Origin: Embleya scabrispora DSM 41855
GTDB lineage: Bacteria > Actinomycetota > Actinomycetes > Streptomycetales > Streptomycetaceae
Direction of reading: 5' to 3'
Assembly (NCBI RefSeq): GCF_000372745.1
Contig: NZ_KB889686.1
Location: forward strand, 269,914-333,913
Length of the DNA: 64,000 nucleotides
Part shown: positions 1,516 through 8,420 of the stretch, piece after piece
How positions within the stretch are numbered: position 1 is the stretch's first letter
Layout: the number at the start of each line of letters is the position of its first letter
Translations under genes and position numbers: made by a program
The notes under the pieces: generated by a model
What the model saw: only the letters and a program-made list of their open reading frames with translations
Database searches by the model: none
Told to the model about the DNA's origin: nothing

Positions 1516-2142
1516 TCAGGTCCCTCGTCGTTCACCGTCCGGCACACCCGTTTCCGATCCGCTGCAATCCTCGTATGTCGGCGCCGCCCACACCAGCCCC
1601 GCGCGGGAAGTTCGTGGCCCACCGGAAGGTGCGATCCGCCGCACCGCCACCCCGACCACTTGGTCGCGGTGCACGAAGCCGTACGCGCGCGAGTCCCAAC
1701 TCGACGCGGCGTTGTCCCCCAGCACGACCAGGGCGCCCGCGGGCACCGCTTCCCCGGCGGCGTCGCGCAGCACCGGGAATTGCTCCACCGGCACCGGATC
1801 GCCCGCCACCGCCACCGCGCGTTTGACCATCAACCGGCCCTGCGGCGCCGGCGCCAGGTCGATGCGCTCCGGGATCGCGGCGAGTGTCGCCGGATCCGAC
1901 TCCCGCAGACCCGGCGGCAGTCCGGCCACCACCGGCGGATGGGGGACGCGTACGACCACCACCTGACCGGCGCGCACCCGCCCGGTGCGGCGCACCAGCA
2001 AACGATCGCCCGGGAAGAGCGTGGGCTCCATGCTCGGGCCCTCGACCGCGGCCACCAGGTAGCGCCGTTGCACCCACAGCAGCGCCGCGACGCCGATGCC
2101 GGCGCTCGCGAGCACGGCCGGCCCGACCCGTCGAGTGTTCAC
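1516..2142 (-). CDS. S26 family signal peptidase
   Basis: A 208-residue type I signal peptidase-like membrane protease. The GTG start at 2142 has aggagg four bases upstream and overlaps the TGA of the ABC exporter (GTGA). A single membrane segment (about residues 9-24) anchors it with the catalytic domain outside. The catalytic Ser37 lies in GPSMEPTLFPGD and the general-base Lys107 in LMVKRAVAVAGD. The later box LGDNAASSWDSRAYG is also present, so the Ser/Lys dyad is complete. As last gene of the overlapping operon with a thiol-redox pair, an exporter and a cysteine-rich peptide, its likely job is removing the leader of that peptide rather than general secretion. That role is inferred from position only. 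Confidence 0.85.
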   Translation of the reverse strand: MNTRRVGPAVLASAGIGVAALLWVQRRYLVAAVEGPSMEPTLFPGDRLLVRRTGRVRAGQVVVVRVPHPPVVAGLPPGLRESDPATLAAIPERIDLAPAPQGRLMVKRAVAVAGDPVPVEQFPVLRDAAGEAVPAGALVVLGDNAASSWDSRAYGFVHRDQVVGVAVRRIAPSGGPRTSRAGLVWAAPTYEDCSGSETGVPDGERRGT

Positions 2143-3956
2143 TTCGCCTCCTGGTAGCCGGCCGCCTGGAGCCGGAACAGGCTCGCGTAGTGGCCCTCGC
2201 GGTCGAGCAACACCTCGTGCGGGCCCTGTTCGACGATCCGGCCGCCGTCCAGGACCACGATCAGGTCCGCGTCGCGCACCGCGCCGAGCCGGTGCGAGAT
2301 GAGCAGGCTGGTGCGTCCCTCGCGGTGTTCGCGCATCCGGGTGTGCACCTCGTGCTCGGCCTGCGGGTCCAGGCCCGAACCGGGCTCGTCCAGGATCATC
2401 AGCTCGCGCCCGCCGCGGACGAACGCCCGGGCCAGGGCCAGGCGTTGCCACTGGCCGCCGGAGAGCACCACGCCGGTGTCCGGGTCCTCCTTGTCGGCCT
2501 CGCTGAAGAACATCCGGGTGAGCAGCGTGTCGTAGCCGCGCGGCAGTGCGGCGAGCCTGTCGTGGATGCCCGCGCGTTCGGCGGCGGCCTCGATCCGGGC
2601 CCGGTCCGTGAGACTGTCCGCGTCGCCGAGGGCGATGTTCTCCGCGGCGGTCATGTCGTAGTTCATGTGGTCCTGGAACACCGCGCTGATCCGCCCGCGA
2701 AGCTCGGCCGGCGGGATGTCGCGCAGGTCCACGCCGTCCCAGGTGATCCGCCCGCGGGTCGGGTCGTACATCCGGCACAGCAGTTTGACCAGCGTGCTCT
2801 TGCCCGCGCCGTTGAGCCCCACCAGAGCCAGCGCCCGACCGCGCGGAATCCGCAGGTCGACCCCGCCCAGCACCCAGGGGTGGTCGTCGCTGTAGCGAAA
2901 CCACACGTCGTGGAACTCGATGCCCACGCCGGGCCTCGGCGCGGCCGGGGTCTCGGTCGCCGAGGCCAGATCGGGTTCGGCACGGGCGACCGCGACGTAG
3001 TGGGTCAGGCCGAGGAGTTGTCCGTGTGCGGAGGCGATCGAGGAGACGAGTCGGTCCAGGGCCGCCTGGATGCCGCCGACCGCGGCGACGAACATGGTTA
3101 CGTCGCCGACGCTGAGCGTGCCGCGCCGGGCAGCGGCGATGGCCCACCACAGGCCGCCGCCGGCGACCGCGGCGCCGAGCGCGCCCAGTACCGCCTGGGT
3201 GGCGAACTCGCGCAGGTCCATTCGGCGTTCGGCCTCGTTGGCGCGGCGGCGCTCGCGCATCATCCGGGTGCGCAGGAAGGGGCCGACGCCGAAGAGACGG
3301 ATCTCGGTGGCCGCCTCGACATCGGTCAACAACCGGCTGTAGAAGAACTCCCGACGGTGCACCTGCTCGAAGTCCCACTGCATGGCGGCGCGCAGTCGGG
3401 ACAACCGCAGTTCGGCGACCAACACGGGCACGGCGGCGAGCAGGACCAGTGCGGTCATCATCGGGCTGAGGATCAGCAGCGAGGCGACGAAGCCGAACAG
3501 CGTCAAGGCGCCCTGGAGGGTGCCGCCCGCGCCGTCCACCAGGACGCCGAAACTCGACGTGCTGCTCTGGCCCAGGCGCAACCGGTCCAAGAACGCCGGG
3601 TCCTCGAACCGGCGCAGTCCCACCTGGCGTTCGGCCGCGGCGAACAGGCGGTCGGTGCCCACGACGCCGGTGGCCCGGCCGATCTGGGCGCGCAGGTAGC
3701 GGCCGATGCCCGGCAGCATGGTGGCGACCAGTCCGGTGACCGCGAGCGCGATCGCCAGGCCGCCGATCGCGCCGTGCCCGCTGGTGAGTCGGTCGATGAC
3801 CAGCTTGGTCAGCCACGCGATGGTGATCGGCACGCCCGCCGAACCCAGGGTCACCGCCAGCGACCCGACCGCCTGGGCGGGGGCCGCGTGGAAGGTGAGC
3901 GACACCGCCTCGCGGGCGGCGGCGAACAGGTCACGGGCCGAAATCCGTGGGCTCAC
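2139..3956 (-). CDS. ABC exporter, fused permease and ATPase
   Basis: A 605-residue half-size type I exporter. The GTG start at 3956 overlaps the upstream TGA by GTGA. Residues 1-320 form the membrane domain (hydrophobic segments around 30-55, 65-85, 150-185 and 255-275), and residues about 343-600 form the nucleotide-binding domain: Walker A GLNGAGKST (380-388), signature LSGGQ (498-502), Walker B ILDEP (521-525) and a switch His in SHRLG. There is no N-terminal C39 peptidase domain, so it cannot itself cut a double-glycine leader. That fits the separate S26 peptidase encoded next. An insertion near 480-495 (FFSEADKEDPD) precedes the signature. The subfamily is common in peptide natural-product clusters. 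Substrate inferred from context: the cysteine-rich peptide at 5362-5520. Confidence 0.9.
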   Translation of the reverse strand: MSPRISARDLFAAAREAVSLTFHAAPAQAVGSLAVTLGSAGVPITIAWLTKLVIDRLTSGHGAIGGLAIALAVTGLVATMLPGIGRYLRAQIGRATGVVGTDRLFAAAERQVGLRRFEDPAFLDRLRLGQSSTSSFGVLVDGAGGTLQGALTLFGFVASLLILSPMMTALVLLAAVPVLVAELRLSRLRAAMQWDFEQVHRREFFYSRLLTDVEAATEIRLFGVGPFLRTRMMRERRRANEAERRMDLREFATQAVLGALGAAVAGGGLWWAIAAARRGTLSVGDVTMFVAAVGGIQAALDRLVSSIASAHGQLLGLTHYVAVARAEPDLASATETPAAPRPGVGIEFHDVWFRYSDDHPWVLGGVDLRIPRGRALALVGLNGAGKSTLVKLLCRMYDPTRGRITWDGVDLRDIPPAELRGRISAVFQDHMNYDMTAAENIALGDADSLTDRARIEAAAERAGIHDRLAALPRGYDTLLTRMFFSEADKEDPDTGVVLSGGQWQRLALARAFVRGGRELMILDEPGSGLDPQAEHEVHTRMREHREGRTSLLISHRLGAVRDADLIVVLDGGRIVEQGPHEVLLDREGHYASLFRLQAAGYQEAK

Positions 3957-4495
3957 GCGTGCGCTTCGCTGGGCCGATGGGTGGTGGGCAGATCGGTGTC
4001 GGGCAGATCCGTCGTCCTCAGGCCGGCCGCCACCACCCGCCGGTCCGCGCCGAGCAGGTACATCGCCGGCGTCCAGGTATTGCGGAAGGCCGCCTGGACC
4101 ACCCCGTCGTGCTCCTCCACGATCACCCGGGCCACCGGCGTCAACAGCGCGAGCAACTCGGCGTCGTCGCCGGCGATCACCGCCAGCGCGCGCTCTCGGC
4201 CCAGCGCGCGGGCCCGCTCGGCGAAGCGCGGTGCCTGCACGTGGCAGGGCTCGCAACCGGCGGAGAAGAACCCGACCAGCCCGCCGACGTCGAGGTCGCC
4301 CACCTGCTCGCCGGTGATCGTGGTGGCCGTGAACACGCCGGGACGCATGCCGGGCCGCAGCTCCATCGGCGGCCCCGAGGAGTGCGCGGTCTGCGGTTGT
4401 TGTCCGCGCAGCCTGCGCAGTACGCCGAGCAGGAGCACCAGGTTCAACGCGGTCACCAGGCCGATGAGCACGACCGCGACGACAAGTATGGGCAT
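3953..4495 (-). CDS. TlpA/MauD-like membrane-anchored thiol oxidoreductase
   Basis: A 180-residue protein with one N-terminal membrane anchor (about residues 3-25) and a thioredoxin-like domain facing outside. The redox motif is Cys81-Glu-Pro-Cys84 in GFFSAGCEPCHVQAP, and the cis-proline region is the TWTPAMYLL segment. The start ATG overlaps the preceding stop as TGATG, so it is translationally coupled to the MauE-like gene. In methylamine dehydrogenase systems MauD, a protein of this kind, works with MauE to form disulfides in the cysteine-rich small subunit. Here no mauA/mauB is present, and the only cysteine-rich client nearby is the 52-residue peptide, so I infer disulfide formation or shuffling on that peptide. 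Confidence 0.85.
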   Translation of the reverse strand: MPILVVAVVLIGLVTALNLVLLLGVLRRLRGQQPQTAHSSGPPMELRPGMRPGVFTATTITGEQVGDLDVGGLVGFFSAGCEPCHVQAPRFAERARALGRERALAVIAGDDAELLALLTPVARVIVEEHDGVVQAAFRNTWTPAMYLLGADRRVVAAGLRTTDLPDTDLPTTHRPSEAHA

Positions 4496-5019
4496 CAGGC
4501 ATTCCTCGCGAACAGGTCGACGATGTCGTCCAGGGAAATGATCAGGAGCGCGCCGACCAGCCCGACCACCATCGCGACGGCACAGCCGGCGAGCGGGGGC
4601 AGCAGGTCGGCGGAGGAGCCGACGCCGGTCGCCGACAGCCCGGCGATCGAGGCGGCGAGCAGGACGCCGTTGCGCACCAGATGGCGCGGGCCCAACGGCG
4701 CGTCGGAGGCGCCGAAGCAGCGGCAGGAGGAGCGCCGACCCCGGCGCAGCGCCGCACCGATGGCCGCGGTGAACGCGGCGAGCAGGACACCGGCGATTGC
4801 GAAGCCCGGGCCGCGGGTCGGCGGGACCGGGACGAGCACGGGGACCGAGATTTCCCCGGCGACCACCGCGTACCCGATCGGGCGGGTGGATCCGGCCCGC
4901 ATGGGCACCAGGCCCGGTATCGAGTCGACGAAGCCGTCGAAATCGCGGAGCTTGGTGACCGCGGAGGCCGCGAATACGAGGCCGATCAGACAGGCACAGC
5001 CCACATATATGTAGCCCAC
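4495..5019 (-). CDS. MauE/DoxX-like redox-associated membrane protein
   Basis: A 174-residue integral membrane protein. The GTG start at 5019 is supported by a run of G bases 8 to 13 bases upstream. Four hydrophobic segments are visible (about 4-22, 48-66, 74-92 and 143-163). The central SSCRCFG (Cys99, Cys101) matches the CxCFG signature of MauE-type proteins, which pass electrons between a membrane partner and a thioredoxin-fold protein. It is first in the four-gene overlapping unit and overlaps the TlpA/MauD-like gene by one base, so the two should be made in equal amount. Cys8 and Cys10 near the N-terminus may also take part. The direction of electron flow (oxidising or reducing) is not visible. 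Confidence 0.85.
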   Translation of the reverse strand: MGYIYVGCACLIGLVFAASAVTKLRDFDGFVDSIPGLVPMRAGSTRPIGYAVVAGEISVPVLVPVPPTRGPGFAIAGVLLAAFTAAIGAALRRGRRSSCRCFGASDAPLGPRHLVRNGVLLAASIAGLSATGVGSSADLLPPLAGCAVAMVVGLVGALLIISLDDIVDLFARNA

Positions 5020-5048
5020 GGCTATCCCCCCTTTTTGGCGCGCGGAAA

Positions 5049-5078
5049 CGGCGGGCGGCGAAAGTTCGCCGCCCGCCG
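5049..5078 (-). terminator. Long hairpin just before the mauE-like gene
   Basis: Fourteen-base perfect arms 5049-5062 and 5065-5078 surround a two-base turn, ending about 30 bases before the GTG start at 5019. Its place in the leader of the operon suggests an attenuator or transcript-stabilising element rather than an end-of-operon terminator. Confidence 0.55.
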
Positions 5079-5310
5079 TCGAGTCCGGCAGGATCGCCCA
5101 ACACATTTCGAGGTCGCCACTACACGCAAATTCGCCGGATTCGTGGTGACGAAGATACGTGTCGTACTACGCCGAACGCAGTTGTCGATGCGATCCTTCG
5201 CGGCGACCACCTTGTGGGTGGTCCGCCCCGATAACGACGGCGCGATAATAAATCCCGCGGCGGTCAATCCCGCTGCGCGATATTGCATCGCGGAATATCA
5301 CCAACGACCG

Positions 5311-5343
5311 CGATGGGCGGAGGCGGACGAACCCCGCCCATCG
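5311..5343 (-). terminator. Hairpin directly after the peptide gene
   Basis: Ten-base perfect arms cgatgggcgg (5311-5320) and ccgcccatcg (5334-5343) lie 18 bases after the peptide stop codon. Partial termination here would make far more peptide transcript than maturation-gene transcript, as is common in peptide natural-product operons. Confidence 0.55.
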
Positions 5344-5361
5344 ACGGCTCCCGGGCCGAGG

Positions 5362-5520
5362 TCAGCAGTTGCCCACGCGCGTGGTGGTGCAGCCTTCGTC
5401 CTTGCAACACTGGTACAGGAAGAGCACACCGCCACCGCAGAAGTAGGTGTTGCTACAGCCTGCCTCGACCGTGGCCTTTTGGGTCAGACGGTTCAACAGG
5501 CGATCGGCGAGACGCATCAT
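5362..5520 (-). CDS. Small cysteine-rich peptide, candidate exported disulfide peptide
   Basis: A 52-residue open frame, begun by ATG-ATG at 5520/5517 with gagaggag 5 to 8 bases upstream. The N-terminal 21 residues are helical-looking and basic (MMRLADRLLNRL...) with no hydrophobic core, so this is not a Sec signal. The following 31 residues hold six cysteines (22, 28, 38, 39, 44 and 52; segment GCSNTYFCGGG, then QCCKDEGC, ending VGNC). Six cysteines allow three disulfides. The stretch V18-E19-A20 before Gly21 fits the small-residue -3/-1 rule of S26 peptidases. Downstream on the same strand are a MauE-like and a TlpA/MauD-like protein, an ABC exporter and an S26 peptidase. I infer that the peptide is the substrate of all of them: leader removed, core oxidised and exported. 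I recognise no known family; activity (antimicrobial, signal or structural) is unknown. Confidence 0.75.
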   Translation of the reverse strand: MMRLADRLLNRLTQKATVEAGCSNTYFCGGGVLFLYQCCKDEGCTTTRVGNC

Positions 5521-5773: not shown

Positions 5774-5800
5774 GGCCCGCCCGCGCGGATATGGCGGGCC
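5774..5800 (-). terminator. Terminator hairpin of the sortase operon
   Basis: Eight-base perfect arms ggcccgcc (5774-5781) and ggcgggcc (5793-5800) begin at the sortase stop codon. It separates the sortase operon from the peptide gene, which therefore needs its own promoter in 5521-5773. Confidence 0.6.
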
Positions 5801-6549
5801 TACGGGACGAGGTGGGCGAAAACCACGACGTTGCCGGAGTAGTGGCTCTTCCTGCTGTAGGTGCCGCCGCAGGTGAGCAGGCGCAACTCCGGCCGGGGCG
5901 CGTCGCCGAACACGCGCGCGGTGGGGAACTCGTTCCGGGCGAACACCTCGACCCCGTCCACCACGAAGGCCGCGACGCTGCCGTCCTCGCGATCGATCTC
6001 GATCCGGGAGCCGCGCGGCAGCGCGCCCAGCGGATAGAAGACCGCGGGACCGGCGGCGGTGTCCACATGGCCGGCGATCGAGGCCGTGCCCTTCTGGCCG
6101 GGCGTCACGCCGCCCTGGTACCAGCCGGCCAGGTTGCGATCCCCCTGCGAGGGCACGTCGATGCCGCCCGCCTGGTCCAGGCCGACCCGGGCCAGCGGGG
6201 CCGAGATGCCCAGCTCCGGAATCCGGATCCGGGTCGGGATCGAGGCACGCATCGGCGGCGCGTCCGGCGGCGGGGGCGGCCCCTCGGAGGGCGGCGCGGG
6301 TGCGGGTGGCGCTGCGGGATCGGCGGCCTGCGCCGCGGGATCGGCGGGCGTCGCCGGCGGCGCGATCGGCACCGCGGCTGCGGCAGGCGGGCGCGGCGGC
6401 GGTGCGGAGGCGTCGTATCCGGCATACAGAAGACTGGTGCCGCCGATCGCCAGCACGCCGCTGGCCGCCGCCCAGAGCAGGCGGCGGCCACCGGTTCGGT
6501 GCTGCCGATCCGCGGCACTCACGGGTGCCTCGGGTGCGGAACGGGACAT
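5800..6549 (-). CDS. Class F-type sortase
   Basis: A 249-residue membrane-anchored cysteine transpeptidase. A membrane segment (about 24-44) is followed by a long Pro/Ala spacer (about 48-100) and the sortase beta-barrel. Catalytic residues are His161 (IAGHVDT), Cys227 (LRLLTCGGTYS) and Arg233 (YSRKSHYSGN). Sortases of this actinobacterial group act outside the membrane and cleave LPxTG-like signals to attach proteins to the cell wall or to pili. No clear LPxTG protein is encoded in the window. The neighbouring upstream gene (6553-7023), three bases away in the same operon, has a C-terminal membrane segment and basic tail and may be a non-canonical client or accessory protein. Confidence 0.9.
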   Translation of the reverse strand: MSRSAPEAPVSAADRQHRTGGRRLLWAAASGVLAIGGTSLLYAGYDASAPPPRPPAAAAVPIAPPATPADPAAQAADPAAPPAPAPPSEGPPPPPDAPPMRASIPTRIRIPELGISAPLARVGLDQAGGIDVPSQGDRNLAGWYQGGVTPGQKGTASIAGHVDTAAGPAVFYPLGALPRGSRIEIDREDGSVAAFVVDGVEVFARNEFPTARVFGDAPRPELRLLTCGGTYSRKSHYSGNVVVFAHLVP

Positions 6550-6552
6550 CGG

Positions 6553-7023
6553 TCAGGCGAGGTTCGAGGTGCGGCGGCGCAGCGCGACGAAGCCGGTACC
6601 GGCCGCGCCCGCGAGCACCAGACCGCCCACCACGCGCAGAGCCGGGTCGCCGTACTGGATCCCGCCGAACCCGGCCGTGGACGCCATGGTCGGCGCGCCG
6701 CCCATCACGTGCAGGCTGCCGATCAGCTCCTGGCCGTCGCCGCAGACCACCTTGACCTCGTAATCGCCGGTGGGCACGTCCTTGATGGTGGCCTGCCCCT
6801 TGACCTCGTCGCCGCTGCGGTTGAGAGTGACCACGGTCGTGAACGCGTTCGAGGAAGCGGTTGCCGTATTCGCGGTGCAGTGCTTGTCATCCGACAGGAG
6901 CACCGTGTCGCCGGGACGACCGGAATCGGCCTGCATCGGCGTGGCGGCGAACGCCGCGCCTGCCGAACCGCACACGGTGAGACCGACGATGGTGCCGACG
7001 ACTGCGAGACGGGCACAGCGCAT
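6553..7023 (-). CDS. Secreted protein with C-terminal membrane anchor, sortase partner
   Basis: A 156-residue protein starting at 7023 with ggagg six bases upstream. A signal peptide (about 1-27, ending AGAAFAATP) is followed by a domain of about 85 residues with cysteines in DDKHCTAN and VKVVCGDGQ, and a beta-rich look reminiscent of immunoglobulin-like secreted domains of streptomycetes. The C-terminus has a membrane segment (about 130-148) and the basic tail RRRTSNLA, the layout of a cell-surface anchor, but no LPxTG-type motif. It is first in a two-gene operon with the class F-type sortase. This arrangement recurs in streptomycetes; the function is not known. Confidence 0.75.
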   Translation of the reverse strand: MRCARLAVVGTIVGLTVCGSAGAAFAATPMQADSGRPGDTVLLSDDKHCTANTATASSNAFTTVVTLNRSGDEVKGQATIKDVPTGDYEVKVVCGDGQELIGSLHVMGGAPTMASTAGFGGIQYGDPALRVVGGLVLAGAAGTGFVALRRRTSNLA

Positions 7024-7400
7024 TTCGTCCTCCAATGGACGTGCAGACAATGGACATGCGGAACCGAACCCGTCGAACCGGGTCACAGGGGGAGCTCCGC
7101 TACAAGGAACGTAGGAAGCCGCCCCACCCCCCGCCACCGCTGGCCGCCGAACGGTGGATCACGTCGGGCGTGGGGGTGGAATGGGGCCACCCGAGGGTTA
7201 GCGGGTGTCGTCAACCTCCGCCTCGCCCACCTGACGGGCCGCCATCGCCGCCGATGTCGTCCGCCATCGGCGGCACCACCGTCTCGTGCACAATCCCGCC
7301 GGCGAGCACCGCTCGCGGCACGTCCTGGGGTACGTCCAGCCCCCGAAGCGCCTCGGCGATGCCGCACGACGTGCTCGCTCGCCGGGCGGGCCCGGGGCGC
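7024..7400 (-). other. Intergenic region with a coding-like stretch
   Basis: No start codon-supported gene is seen. On the minus strand the frame ending at 7211 reads like protein from about 7375 (segment GIAEALRGLDVPQDVPRAVL) with third-position GC bias, but no start codon or ribosome site precedes it. A ten-base perfect hairpin lies at 7247-7274. Confidence 0.4.
7247..7274 (-). terminator. Hairpin after the acyltransferase gene
   Basis: Arms gccgccgatg (7247-7256) and catcggcggc (7265-7274) pair perfectly across eight bases, 127 bases past the acyltransferase stop codon. Confidence 0.4.
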
Positions 7401-8420
7401 TCAGGCGCCGGGCGCGTCCGACGGCGCCGCGAGAGCGGCCAGATCCTGGTGCAGCAGGCCGGCCGCCCGCAGCGCGCAGGCGACCCGGGCCAGGTCGGCA
7501 CCGGCCGTGACCGGTACCACGGTGCGCGCCCGGGCATCGGCGGAGCGCGCGAACGGACCGAGCACGTTGCGGGCGCCGGTCTCCACGAACACCTCGATCC
7601 CGCGCTCGCGCAACGTGGTCACCGCATTGCGGTAGCGCACCGGGTGCCGCAACTGGCCCACCACACCGTCGCGGAGCTCGCGCTCGTCGGCGTAATCCCG
7701 GCCCAACAGCGGCGACAGGACCGGATAGCGCGGAGCCCGGAAGTCGACGTCCGCCCCGAGCCGGCGCCACTCGGTGGCGGCCGACTCGCGCAGCCGGTTG
7801 TGGAACAGCGTGCGCACCGTCAACGCCTTGGACACCACCGATCTGCGCTTCGCCAACGCCGCGAACGTGGCCAGCGATTCGTCGGGGCCGGAGACCACGG
7901 TGTGCTCGATGGAGTTGTCACAGGCCAGATCGAGCCCGGGCAACTGCGCCGAGCACAACAGTTCGAGCGTGTGCCCCGACGCCAGGCGCAGGGTGAGCAG
8001 ACCGCCCGGATCACTGGTATGGATCGTGCACGCCGCCGCCCGGGCCAGGTACAACCGGGCGCCGTCTCCCGCCGTGTACACCCCGGCCGCGGCCAGCGCC
8101 GCCGTCTCGCCCAGGCTGTGCCCGAGCAGCACGTCGGGTCGAATCCCGAAGTCGCCTTCGAGCAGTCGGAACGCGGCCAGCGCACCGGTGTAGATGGCCA
8201 GATGCAGGGACAACTCGTGCCGGTCCATCAACTCGTGGGCATCCGGTGCCTTGGGATCGATGAGCAGACGCGAGGGCGAGAGCGTGGCCCGGTCGCCGAC
8301 CGCGTCGTCGACCTCGGCCAGGGTGTCCCGAACGGCGGGCCGATCCTGGAGCCGGCGCAGTGAGCCCGGCACATAGGAGCCAACGCCGGGCATGATGATC
8401 GCGGTGCGTGGCACGCTCAC
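7401..8420 (-). CDS. Stand-alone malonyl-CoA:ACP acyltransferase-like protein
   Basis: A 339-residue discrete acyltransferase. The GTG start at 8420 (VSVPRTAIIMPG) is chosen for gggagag just upstream; an in-frame ATG at 8459 has no ribosome site. The nucleophile Ser is in LLGHSLGETAAL (the GxSxG elbow), the acyl-carboxylate-binding region follows, and the catalytic His is in RTLFHNRL. Such enzymes load malonyl or another acyl group from CoA onto an acyl carrier protein. There is no FabH, ACP or ketosynthase beside it, so this is not the usual fab operon fabD; a trans-acting AT for a polyketide or related pathway is more likely. The usual substrate-specificity motifs are too divergent to name the acyl group. 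Confidence 0.8.
   Translation of the reverse strand: MSVPRTAIIMPGVGSYVPGSLRRLQDRPAVRDTLAEVDDAVGDRATLSPSRLLIDPKAPDAHELMDRHELSLHLAIYTGALAAFRLLEGDFGIRPDVLLGHSLGETAALAAAGVYTAGDGARLYLARAAACTIHTSDPGGLLTLRLASGHTLELLCSAQLPGLDLACDNSIEHTVVSGPDESLATFAALAKRRSVVSKALTVRTLFHNRLRESAATEWRRLGADVDFRAPRYPVLSPLLGRDYADERELRDGVVGQLRHPVRYRNAVTTLRERGIEVFVETGARNVLGPFARSADARARTVVPVTAGADLARVACALRAAGLLHQDLAALAAPSDAPGA

Follow-up and report, generated by a model that had tools for sequence, protein, structure and literature searches.

Here, we describe a five-gene cassette in a 64,000-nucleotide stretch of the genome of Embleya scabrispora DSM 41855 (contig NZ_KB889686.1, C125 in our numbering; hereafter the window), which probably makes a small, secreted, disulfide-locked peptide. 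The genes lie on the minus strand of this 11.39 Mb genome and run in one direction from position 5520 to position 1516, encoding a precursor peptide, a MauE-like protein, a TlpA-like protein, an ATP-binding cassette (ABC) exporter and an S26-type peptidase. The precursor gene (5362–5520) has 52 codons in a frame that is open throughout, reads MMRLADRLLNRLTQKATVEA followed by GCSNTYFCGGGVLFLYQCCKDEGCTTTRVGNC, and is preceded by GGGAGAGGAG located 6–15 bases 5' of its ATG. Its first 20 residues, MMRLADRLLNRLTQKATVEA (5461–5520), form a leader that is basic (isoelectric point 10.7), non-hydrophobic (grand average of hydropathy −0.21) and recognised by the hidden Markov model (HMM) of the family leader described below, and that ends in V-E-A, a V-x-A motif. 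The predicted mature core (5365–5460) would begin at Gly21 and comprises 32 residues with six cysteines spaced C-5-C-9-CC-4-C-7-C, the cleavage position being that suggested by the family, and would have a computed monoisotopic mass of 3392.35 Da if three disulfides form. Just 3' of the stop codon, folding predicts a GC-rich hairpin with 10-base arms (5311–5343).

A gap of 342 bases separates the peptide gene from mauE (4495–5019, 174 residues, likely GTG start), which encodes a membrane protein with a CRCFG motif, identified by Pfam (PF07291, E 1.4e-27), alignment and a structure model. It is followed by tlpA (3953–4495, 180 residues), which by sequence and family profile encodes a TlpA/ResA-like protein with an N-terminal membrane anchor, a CEPC motif and a TP pair consistent with the cis-proline; the window protein itself has no Pfam match, while AhpC-TSA is matched by 21 of the 24 aligned members of its family. 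The exporter gene abc (2139–3956, 605 residues) encodes a membrane domain, just below the Pfam cut-off (ABC_membrane, 27.5 against 28 bits), and an ATPase (ABC_tran, 1e-29) with GLNGAGKS and LSGGQ motifs, and no C39 peptidase is among the Pfam families listed for it. The last gene, s26 (1516–2142, 208 residues), encodes an S26 signal-peptidase-like protein (PF10502, E 2.7e-21) with PSM, KRA and GDN motifs; the motifs named for these four proteins are ones associated with function. With starts read from the sequence, the four machinery genes overlap by 1, 4 and 4 bases. An earlier note, made from the letters of this DNA, had put forward this arrangement of a short six-cysteine gene and four same-strand partners overlapping by one to four bases, and had seen no methylamine dehydrogenase here; its account of the gene content holds, the dehydrogenase light chain having no match above the cut-off in the whole genome.

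The short frame is a conserved gene. Full-length homologues occur in two Embleya records, at 71% and 65% identity, and the peptide is kept in three further genomes of the genus. All six cysteines are present in 17 aligned window-type precursors from Embleya, Sphaerisporangium, Nonomuraea, Actinomadura, Planomonospora and Amycolatopsis, where the rows were hand-chosen, one locus deposited as Streptomyces sp. SID3343 (L107) is counted under Embleya, its sequence being that of a contig of G393 in this genus, and L103 and L105 are excluded as duplicates of L109 and L107. A second peptide copy in L127 (41% identity by tblastn), omitted from that alignment and counted here as a miss, has five cysteines, the fifth being absent, so that 17 of 18 window-type precursors retain all six. 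Other variation consists of a three-residue insertion in L112, L113 and L120 and two extra cysteines in L133. The whole-gene ratio of nonsynonymous to synonymous change (dN/dS, Nei–Gojobori) is below 1 in 22 of 22 pairs, ranging from 0.10 to 0.62, and GC content by codon position is 0.51, 0.51 and 0.79. The post-stop hairpin is predicted in all nine window-type loci folded, with energies 1.5 to 5.1 standard deviations below the mean of mononucleotide shuffles, the window itself being weak at 1.8; such a hairpin could raise the level of the peptide over that of the machinery.

Searches with the single peptide recover little. Among 391 genomes of the order, 182 gave a match at E<=1, the best besides the own genome having an E of 0.018, which we treat as noise; no peptide or MauE relative was confirmed in the viral contigs searched, and Pfam and NCBIfam returned nothing credible for the window peptide or ten further precursors.

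What unites the family is the leader, with the consensus MxxxxxxLxDRLLxRxVPKxxAxA. In all 66 matches to the leader model at an independent E-value (iE) below 0.05, at least four cysteines follow, though the model covers the leader only, and the corresponding background is 10.3% of 8,914 short frames (last 40 residues). A leader-only alignment, five of whose 27 rows stem from genomes searched with it, was matched 29 times at E<=1e-3 across 100 relatives; in 26 cases a TlpA match, located independently, is no more than 5 kb away, and one of these TlpA matches is a remnant (G391:C19). Of the remaining three, L219 is a false match, L217 is an orphan precursor, and L218 keeps the leader but has lost the frame of the core and shows a weak TlpA match. 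At E<=5e-4 a leader is found in 19 of 394 genomes of the class, a lower bound given that divergent leaders are missed. The −3 position is alanine or valine in 139 of 142 leaders. With 24 positions, many genera and few false matches, the leader model makes the family easy to mine. The orphan has eight cysteines and no module match within the 16 kb fetched (L217 7821–8036), the L218 precursor with its surviving leader lies at 7388–8197, and a window-type precursor beside tlpA and s26 remnants in G391:C19 has the look of a decaying cassette (L102 7604–8583).

The machinery likewise recurs as a module. In 100 relatives, the TlpA profile matched 18, mostly adjoining MauE, ABC and S26 homologues. 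A broader scan of 84,980 species genomes with the MauE alignment, which relies on two short peptide patterns and so yields a sample of loci, retained the best 80 of 82. Among these, 68 have TlpA, 64 S26, 60 ABC and 59 all four proteins. The leader HMM used for the co-occurrence test was trained on other loci, save L107, L109 and L141, which served in both. At iE<0.05, it places a precursor in 60 of the 80 loci and 52 of the 59 complete sets, and a looser rule (iE<0.05, or <2 with at least five cysteines, on which L122, L124, L129, L167 and L172 depend) gives 65 of 80 and 56 of 59, four of the latter by weaker scores; leaving out the three shared loci, the looser count is 62 of 77. In the remaining three complete sets (L169, L176 and L180) a frame of the same layout was found by eye, bringing the total to 59 of 59. 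By one route or another, a precursor accompanies 67 of the 68 TlpA loci, the exception being L115 (Actinoallomurus, no ABC or S26 match), and the 12 loci without TlpA contain one (L178, five cysteines), where the lack of TlpA in L138 means little as that locus ends about 100 bases past its MauE match. A second leader model, which includes leaders of the test set and is thus not independent, finds a precursor in 38 of 39 regions.

The hosts include the actinomycetes Nonomuraea, Microbispora, Streptosporangium, Actinomadura, Streptomyces, Amycolatopsis, Lentzea, Micromonospora, Kribbella and Nocardiopsis, together with the myxobacteria Pyxidicoccus (L160) and Corallococcus (L176), and the E. scabrispora genome itself holds four systems, on C125 (the window), C90 (with two peptides), C103 and C109. 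Both outcomes by which the earlier note had asked to be judged thus favour it: gene sets of this kind in other genomes do carry short cysteine-rich frames (59 of 59 complete sets, three by eye), and the full set of six cysteines is found in all but one of 18 window-type precursors. Two precursors beside one set of machinery were seen in L071, L089, L127 (a five- beside a six-cysteine copy), L143, L147, L156, L158 and L159. Clustering of neighbouring frames of at least 140 residues outside the module, across 66 of the 80 loci (14 near-duplicates omitted), gave six clusters present in at least six loci, of which three are regulator-like (BTAD and/or TPR), one is ABC ATPase-like by similarity and two have no Pfam match. 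The large regulator-like genes (L112 627–3764, 11250–14414 and 3658–6303) recur in 22, 21 and 18 of the 66 loci; these counts are uncontrolled, and genes of this type are common in actinomycetes.

The cores differ widely in sequence and cysteine spacing, and what they share is an even number of cysteines: 43 of 43 in set A, 70 of 73 in set B and 26 of 26 in set C. Sets A and B were filtered for at least three and at least four cysteines, respectively, which removes cysteine-poor cores, and set C is 26 of the 42 class-genome matches. With the repeats from three loci common to A and B dropped, reduction at 60% identity leaves 83 non-redundant cores, of which 80 have an even count (binomial p ~1e-20); at 45% the figure is 65 of 68. 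For comparison, other short frames of the same loci have an even count in 109 of 383 cases when their final 40 residues contain at least five cysteines; with at least four the figure is 594 of 868, because four is the commonest count. Because core counts are even, beside two thiol-redox proteins, the cysteines are probably paired. Similar C-I/V-PEHGQCC cores occur in Pyxidicoccus and Actinosynnema (L160 5386–5541 and L168 6756–6914), related to those at L071 7146–7316 and L084 9463–9693, which include cores of the own genome; the likeness suggests transfer between phyla.

For the window core, AlphaFold confidently predicts an all-beta structure with strands at residues 2–9, 12–19 and 23–31 (predicted local distance difference test, pLDDT, 95.3; predicted template modelling score 0.54), although a model of only 32 residues carries little weight on its own. 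Foldseek with this model found no solved structure at E<=0.001, and a sequence search of solved structures gave nothing credible. The cysteine order would fit the C-C-CC-C-C framework of knottins, which are paired I–IV, II–V and III–VI, and the model is three-stranded; the order of the cysteines in its predicted strands tentatively suggests pairs 1–4, 2–6 and 3–5. We weighed a classification as defensin or knottin and adopted neither.

Taken together, the gene content of the cassette, its conservation, the shared leader and the even cysteine number lead us to propose, with a probability of about 0.8, that the five genes make one secreted, disulfide-locked peptide. The precursor would be recognised by its conserved leader and carried across the membrane by the dedicated ABC exporter, the natural route given that the leader lacks any hydrophobic stretch and is thus unlikely to direct Sec export. 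Outside the cell, the membrane-anchored TlpA-like thioredoxin would form or sort the disulfides and be recycled by MauE, and the S26 peptidase would cut after the A/V-x-A at the leader end, releasing the 32-residue peptide with its three disulfides. Alanine or valine at −3 with alanine at −1 fits the S26 rule and the presence of s26 in the cassette. The order of these steps, like transport, oxidation and the cleavage site themselves, is a reading of the sequences, in which the same kind of machinery would elsewhere process cores of other sequences and cysteine spacings.

Several observations weigh against this proposal. The TlpA family profile fits the reductase ResA (1.6e-13) better than the actinobacterial oxidants DsbF (7.9e-10) and MPT53 (3.3e-7), which leaves oxidation a putative step, and Foldseek with the MauE model found no Protein Data Bank match at E<=0.001, so that a DsbB- or VKOR-like role has no structural support. 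Two loci with window-type peptides (L108 and L111), as well as L128, have no window-like exporter within 7 kb; more distant ABC ATPase matches are nevertheless present in L108 and in L111, in the latter one beside an opposite-strand ABC-2 type membrane protein, and L134, which ends 1.6 kb past its MauE match, cannot be judged for exporter content. The C90 system of the own genome (L071) has no MauE match in the 16 kb fetched. Three cores have odd cysteine numbers (the second copy of L127, L140 and L178), core-only dN/dS exceeds 1 in two of the 22 pairs, both with Actinomadura kijaniata, and the alanine at −1 is built into the leader model, which ends there. The earlier note's functional picture is accordingly narrowed. 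Gene sets with precursors bear out a peptide-making machine, but with four systems in one genome and related machinery beside very different cores the peptide is no isolated case; its oxidising step is an inference that must reckon with the likeness to ResA; and no exporter like that of the window was found within 7 kb in L108 and L111, two loci with window-type peptides.

Antagonism of competitors, in the manner of a bacteriocin, is the most likely role that we infer for the product, with intercellular signalling next. It is possible, if on the unlikely side, that the peptide is instead a self-directed signal or a component of the producer's envelope. In favour of such a role, window-type cores differ rather little from genus to genus, less than an arms race would predict; the cores of the wider family are extremely variable, and the cassettes are patchy (the 19 of 394 class genomes above being a lower bound), both of which argue against it.

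Less probable again is that the redox pair is reducing or isomerising, with MauE feeding electrons to the TlpA-like protein, which would correct disulfides or keep cysteines free, the disulfides themselves arising spontaneously or through housekeeping oxidases. The closeness of the TlpA profile to ResA would fit this, as would the residues between its two cysteines, which differ widely among the 24 aligned relatives, but the same profile matches DsbF and MPT53. The even cysteine rule is suggestive of disulfides as the end state and does not mark which enzyme would make them. Both cysteines of MauE are invariant in 31 of 31 alignment rows, and its structure model has six helices (pLDDT 89.6). 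MauE homologues also occur in other settings: loci L116–L119 of Nonomuraea encode MauE proteins 51–55% identical to that of the window and yielded no match to TlpA, ABC, S26 or the leader, which may point to a different MauE role, and the own genome's best match to the Pfam model is a further MauE (G000:C114:24385–24783) on a contig with no leader match at E<=0.05.

That the cysteines serve thioether, sactionine or metal-binding chemistry in place of disulfides seems highly improbable. Lanthipeptides and sactipeptides do include cysteine-rich cores with serine and threonine, and the three odd-numbered cores would suit them, but the six recurrent neighbour clusters contain no known modifying enzyme (lanthionine and radical-SAM models were not run) and only three of the 83 non-redundant cores depart from an even count. 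Finally, the notion that the short frame is a chance one beside an unrelated redox and export operon, for which its shortness and the other frames open across the same bases might speak, is rejected as next to impossible, given that homologues exist in several genera, that dN/dS lies below 1 and that the peptide has the family's leader and even cysteine count.

Returning to the proposal of a disulfide-locked secreted peptide, we consider it reasonably probable that such systems form a single broad class, spread over at least two myxobacteria as well as numerous genera of actinomycetes, with one kind of machine serving hypervariable frameworks of mostly 6, 8 or 10 cysteines; by analogy, this class would resemble the libraries of conotoxin type, with leader and machinery conserved and the core free to evolve. 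Peptides rich in disulfides are much sought after as scaffolds; most of those known come from animals, plants and fungi, and their production in bacteria is difficult. A bacterial cassette that is complete in itself, with relatives that work on very different cores, would open a way to new natural products and perhaps to a tool for production.

The surroundings of the cassette are less constant. Lipoprotein-like (844–1467), sortase-like (5800–6549) and small secreted (6553–7137) genes, so named from their sequences, flank it in the window. Their homologues lie in the same order in L031, L032, L103, L104 and L109 and were not found in the 12 further loci of the comparison, L107 among them, of which some stop after a few kb; it is the cassette, in part or whole, and not its flanks that is common to the compared loci. 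The Embleya cassettes L031 and L032 (NZ_CP108777.1 and NZ_CP108785.1) lie on very large linear replicons of 3.1 and 5.7 Mb that are labelled plasmids.

In the mau operon, MauE acts with a thioredoxin-like partner, and the same pairing is found in the window, which differs in that no dehydrogenase light chain is found above the cut-off genome-wide. Glycocins such as sublancin are glycosylated bacteriocins whose disulfides are made by thiol oxidases encoded in the cluster and which leave the cell through a C39-type ABC exporter, whereas no C39 domain was found here. In terms of ribosomally synthesised and post-translationally modified peptides (RiPPs) more generally, the cassette encodes a precursor with leader and core, its putative MauE and TlpA-like enzymes may modify the core, and s26, present in 64 of 80 loci, is a candidate for removal of the leader, as the alanine or valine at −3 in 139 of 142 leaders would suggest.

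Actifensin and the related bacterial defensins are, like the product proposed here, actinobacterial secreted peptides with a leader and many variants, with 37 residues and three disulfides (PMC6989792). The parts of that paper describing the actifensin locus name several ABC genes, a subtilisin-like protease, a hydrolase and a LuxR protein, and no MauE, TlpA or S26 (PMC6989792). The cysteine pattern given there, C-x5-12-C-x3-C-x9-10-C-x4-5-C-x-C, differs from the window spacing of 5-9-0-4-7, and the actifensin fold combines a helix with a sheet, whereas the model of the window core is all-beta (PMC6989792). The RiPP cluster of TMcin, as far as its description goes, also encodes an enzyme for disulfide formation, the thiol oxidoreductase TmcD, and maturation occurs at the membrane; it differs in its transmembrane precursor, single disulfide, DsbA-family oxidase and S2P-type metalloprotease (PMC13252029).

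The closest precedent comes from decRiPPter (2020), which yielded three candidate RiPP families in Streptomyces with mauE, one of them also with mauD, and precursors of at least eight cysteines (PMC7794033). Its authors propose a role for MauE in precursor modification and note its part in disulfide formation (PMC7794033). As described there, these families share with the window a MauE beside a small cysteine-rich precursor and no other mau genes (of which only the light chain was sought here), and the window peptide, with six cysteines, falls below their eight (PMC7794033). Five Streptomyces loci of our collection (L129, L130, L157, L167 and L184) have 8–10 core cysteines. The earlier note's claim that no described family combines these parts therefore has to be qualified by this proposal. 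In our survey of the open-licence PubMed Central literature, subscription papers lying outside its scope, no characterised member of the family was recognised. The passages on the decRiPPter families describe no shared leader, S26 or A-x-A site, parity or cross-genus analysis (PMC7794033). MauE-associated, cysteine-rich candidate RiPPs had thus already been proposed, and what is added here is a leader that unites the family, together with the S26 site and the rule of even cysteine numbers.

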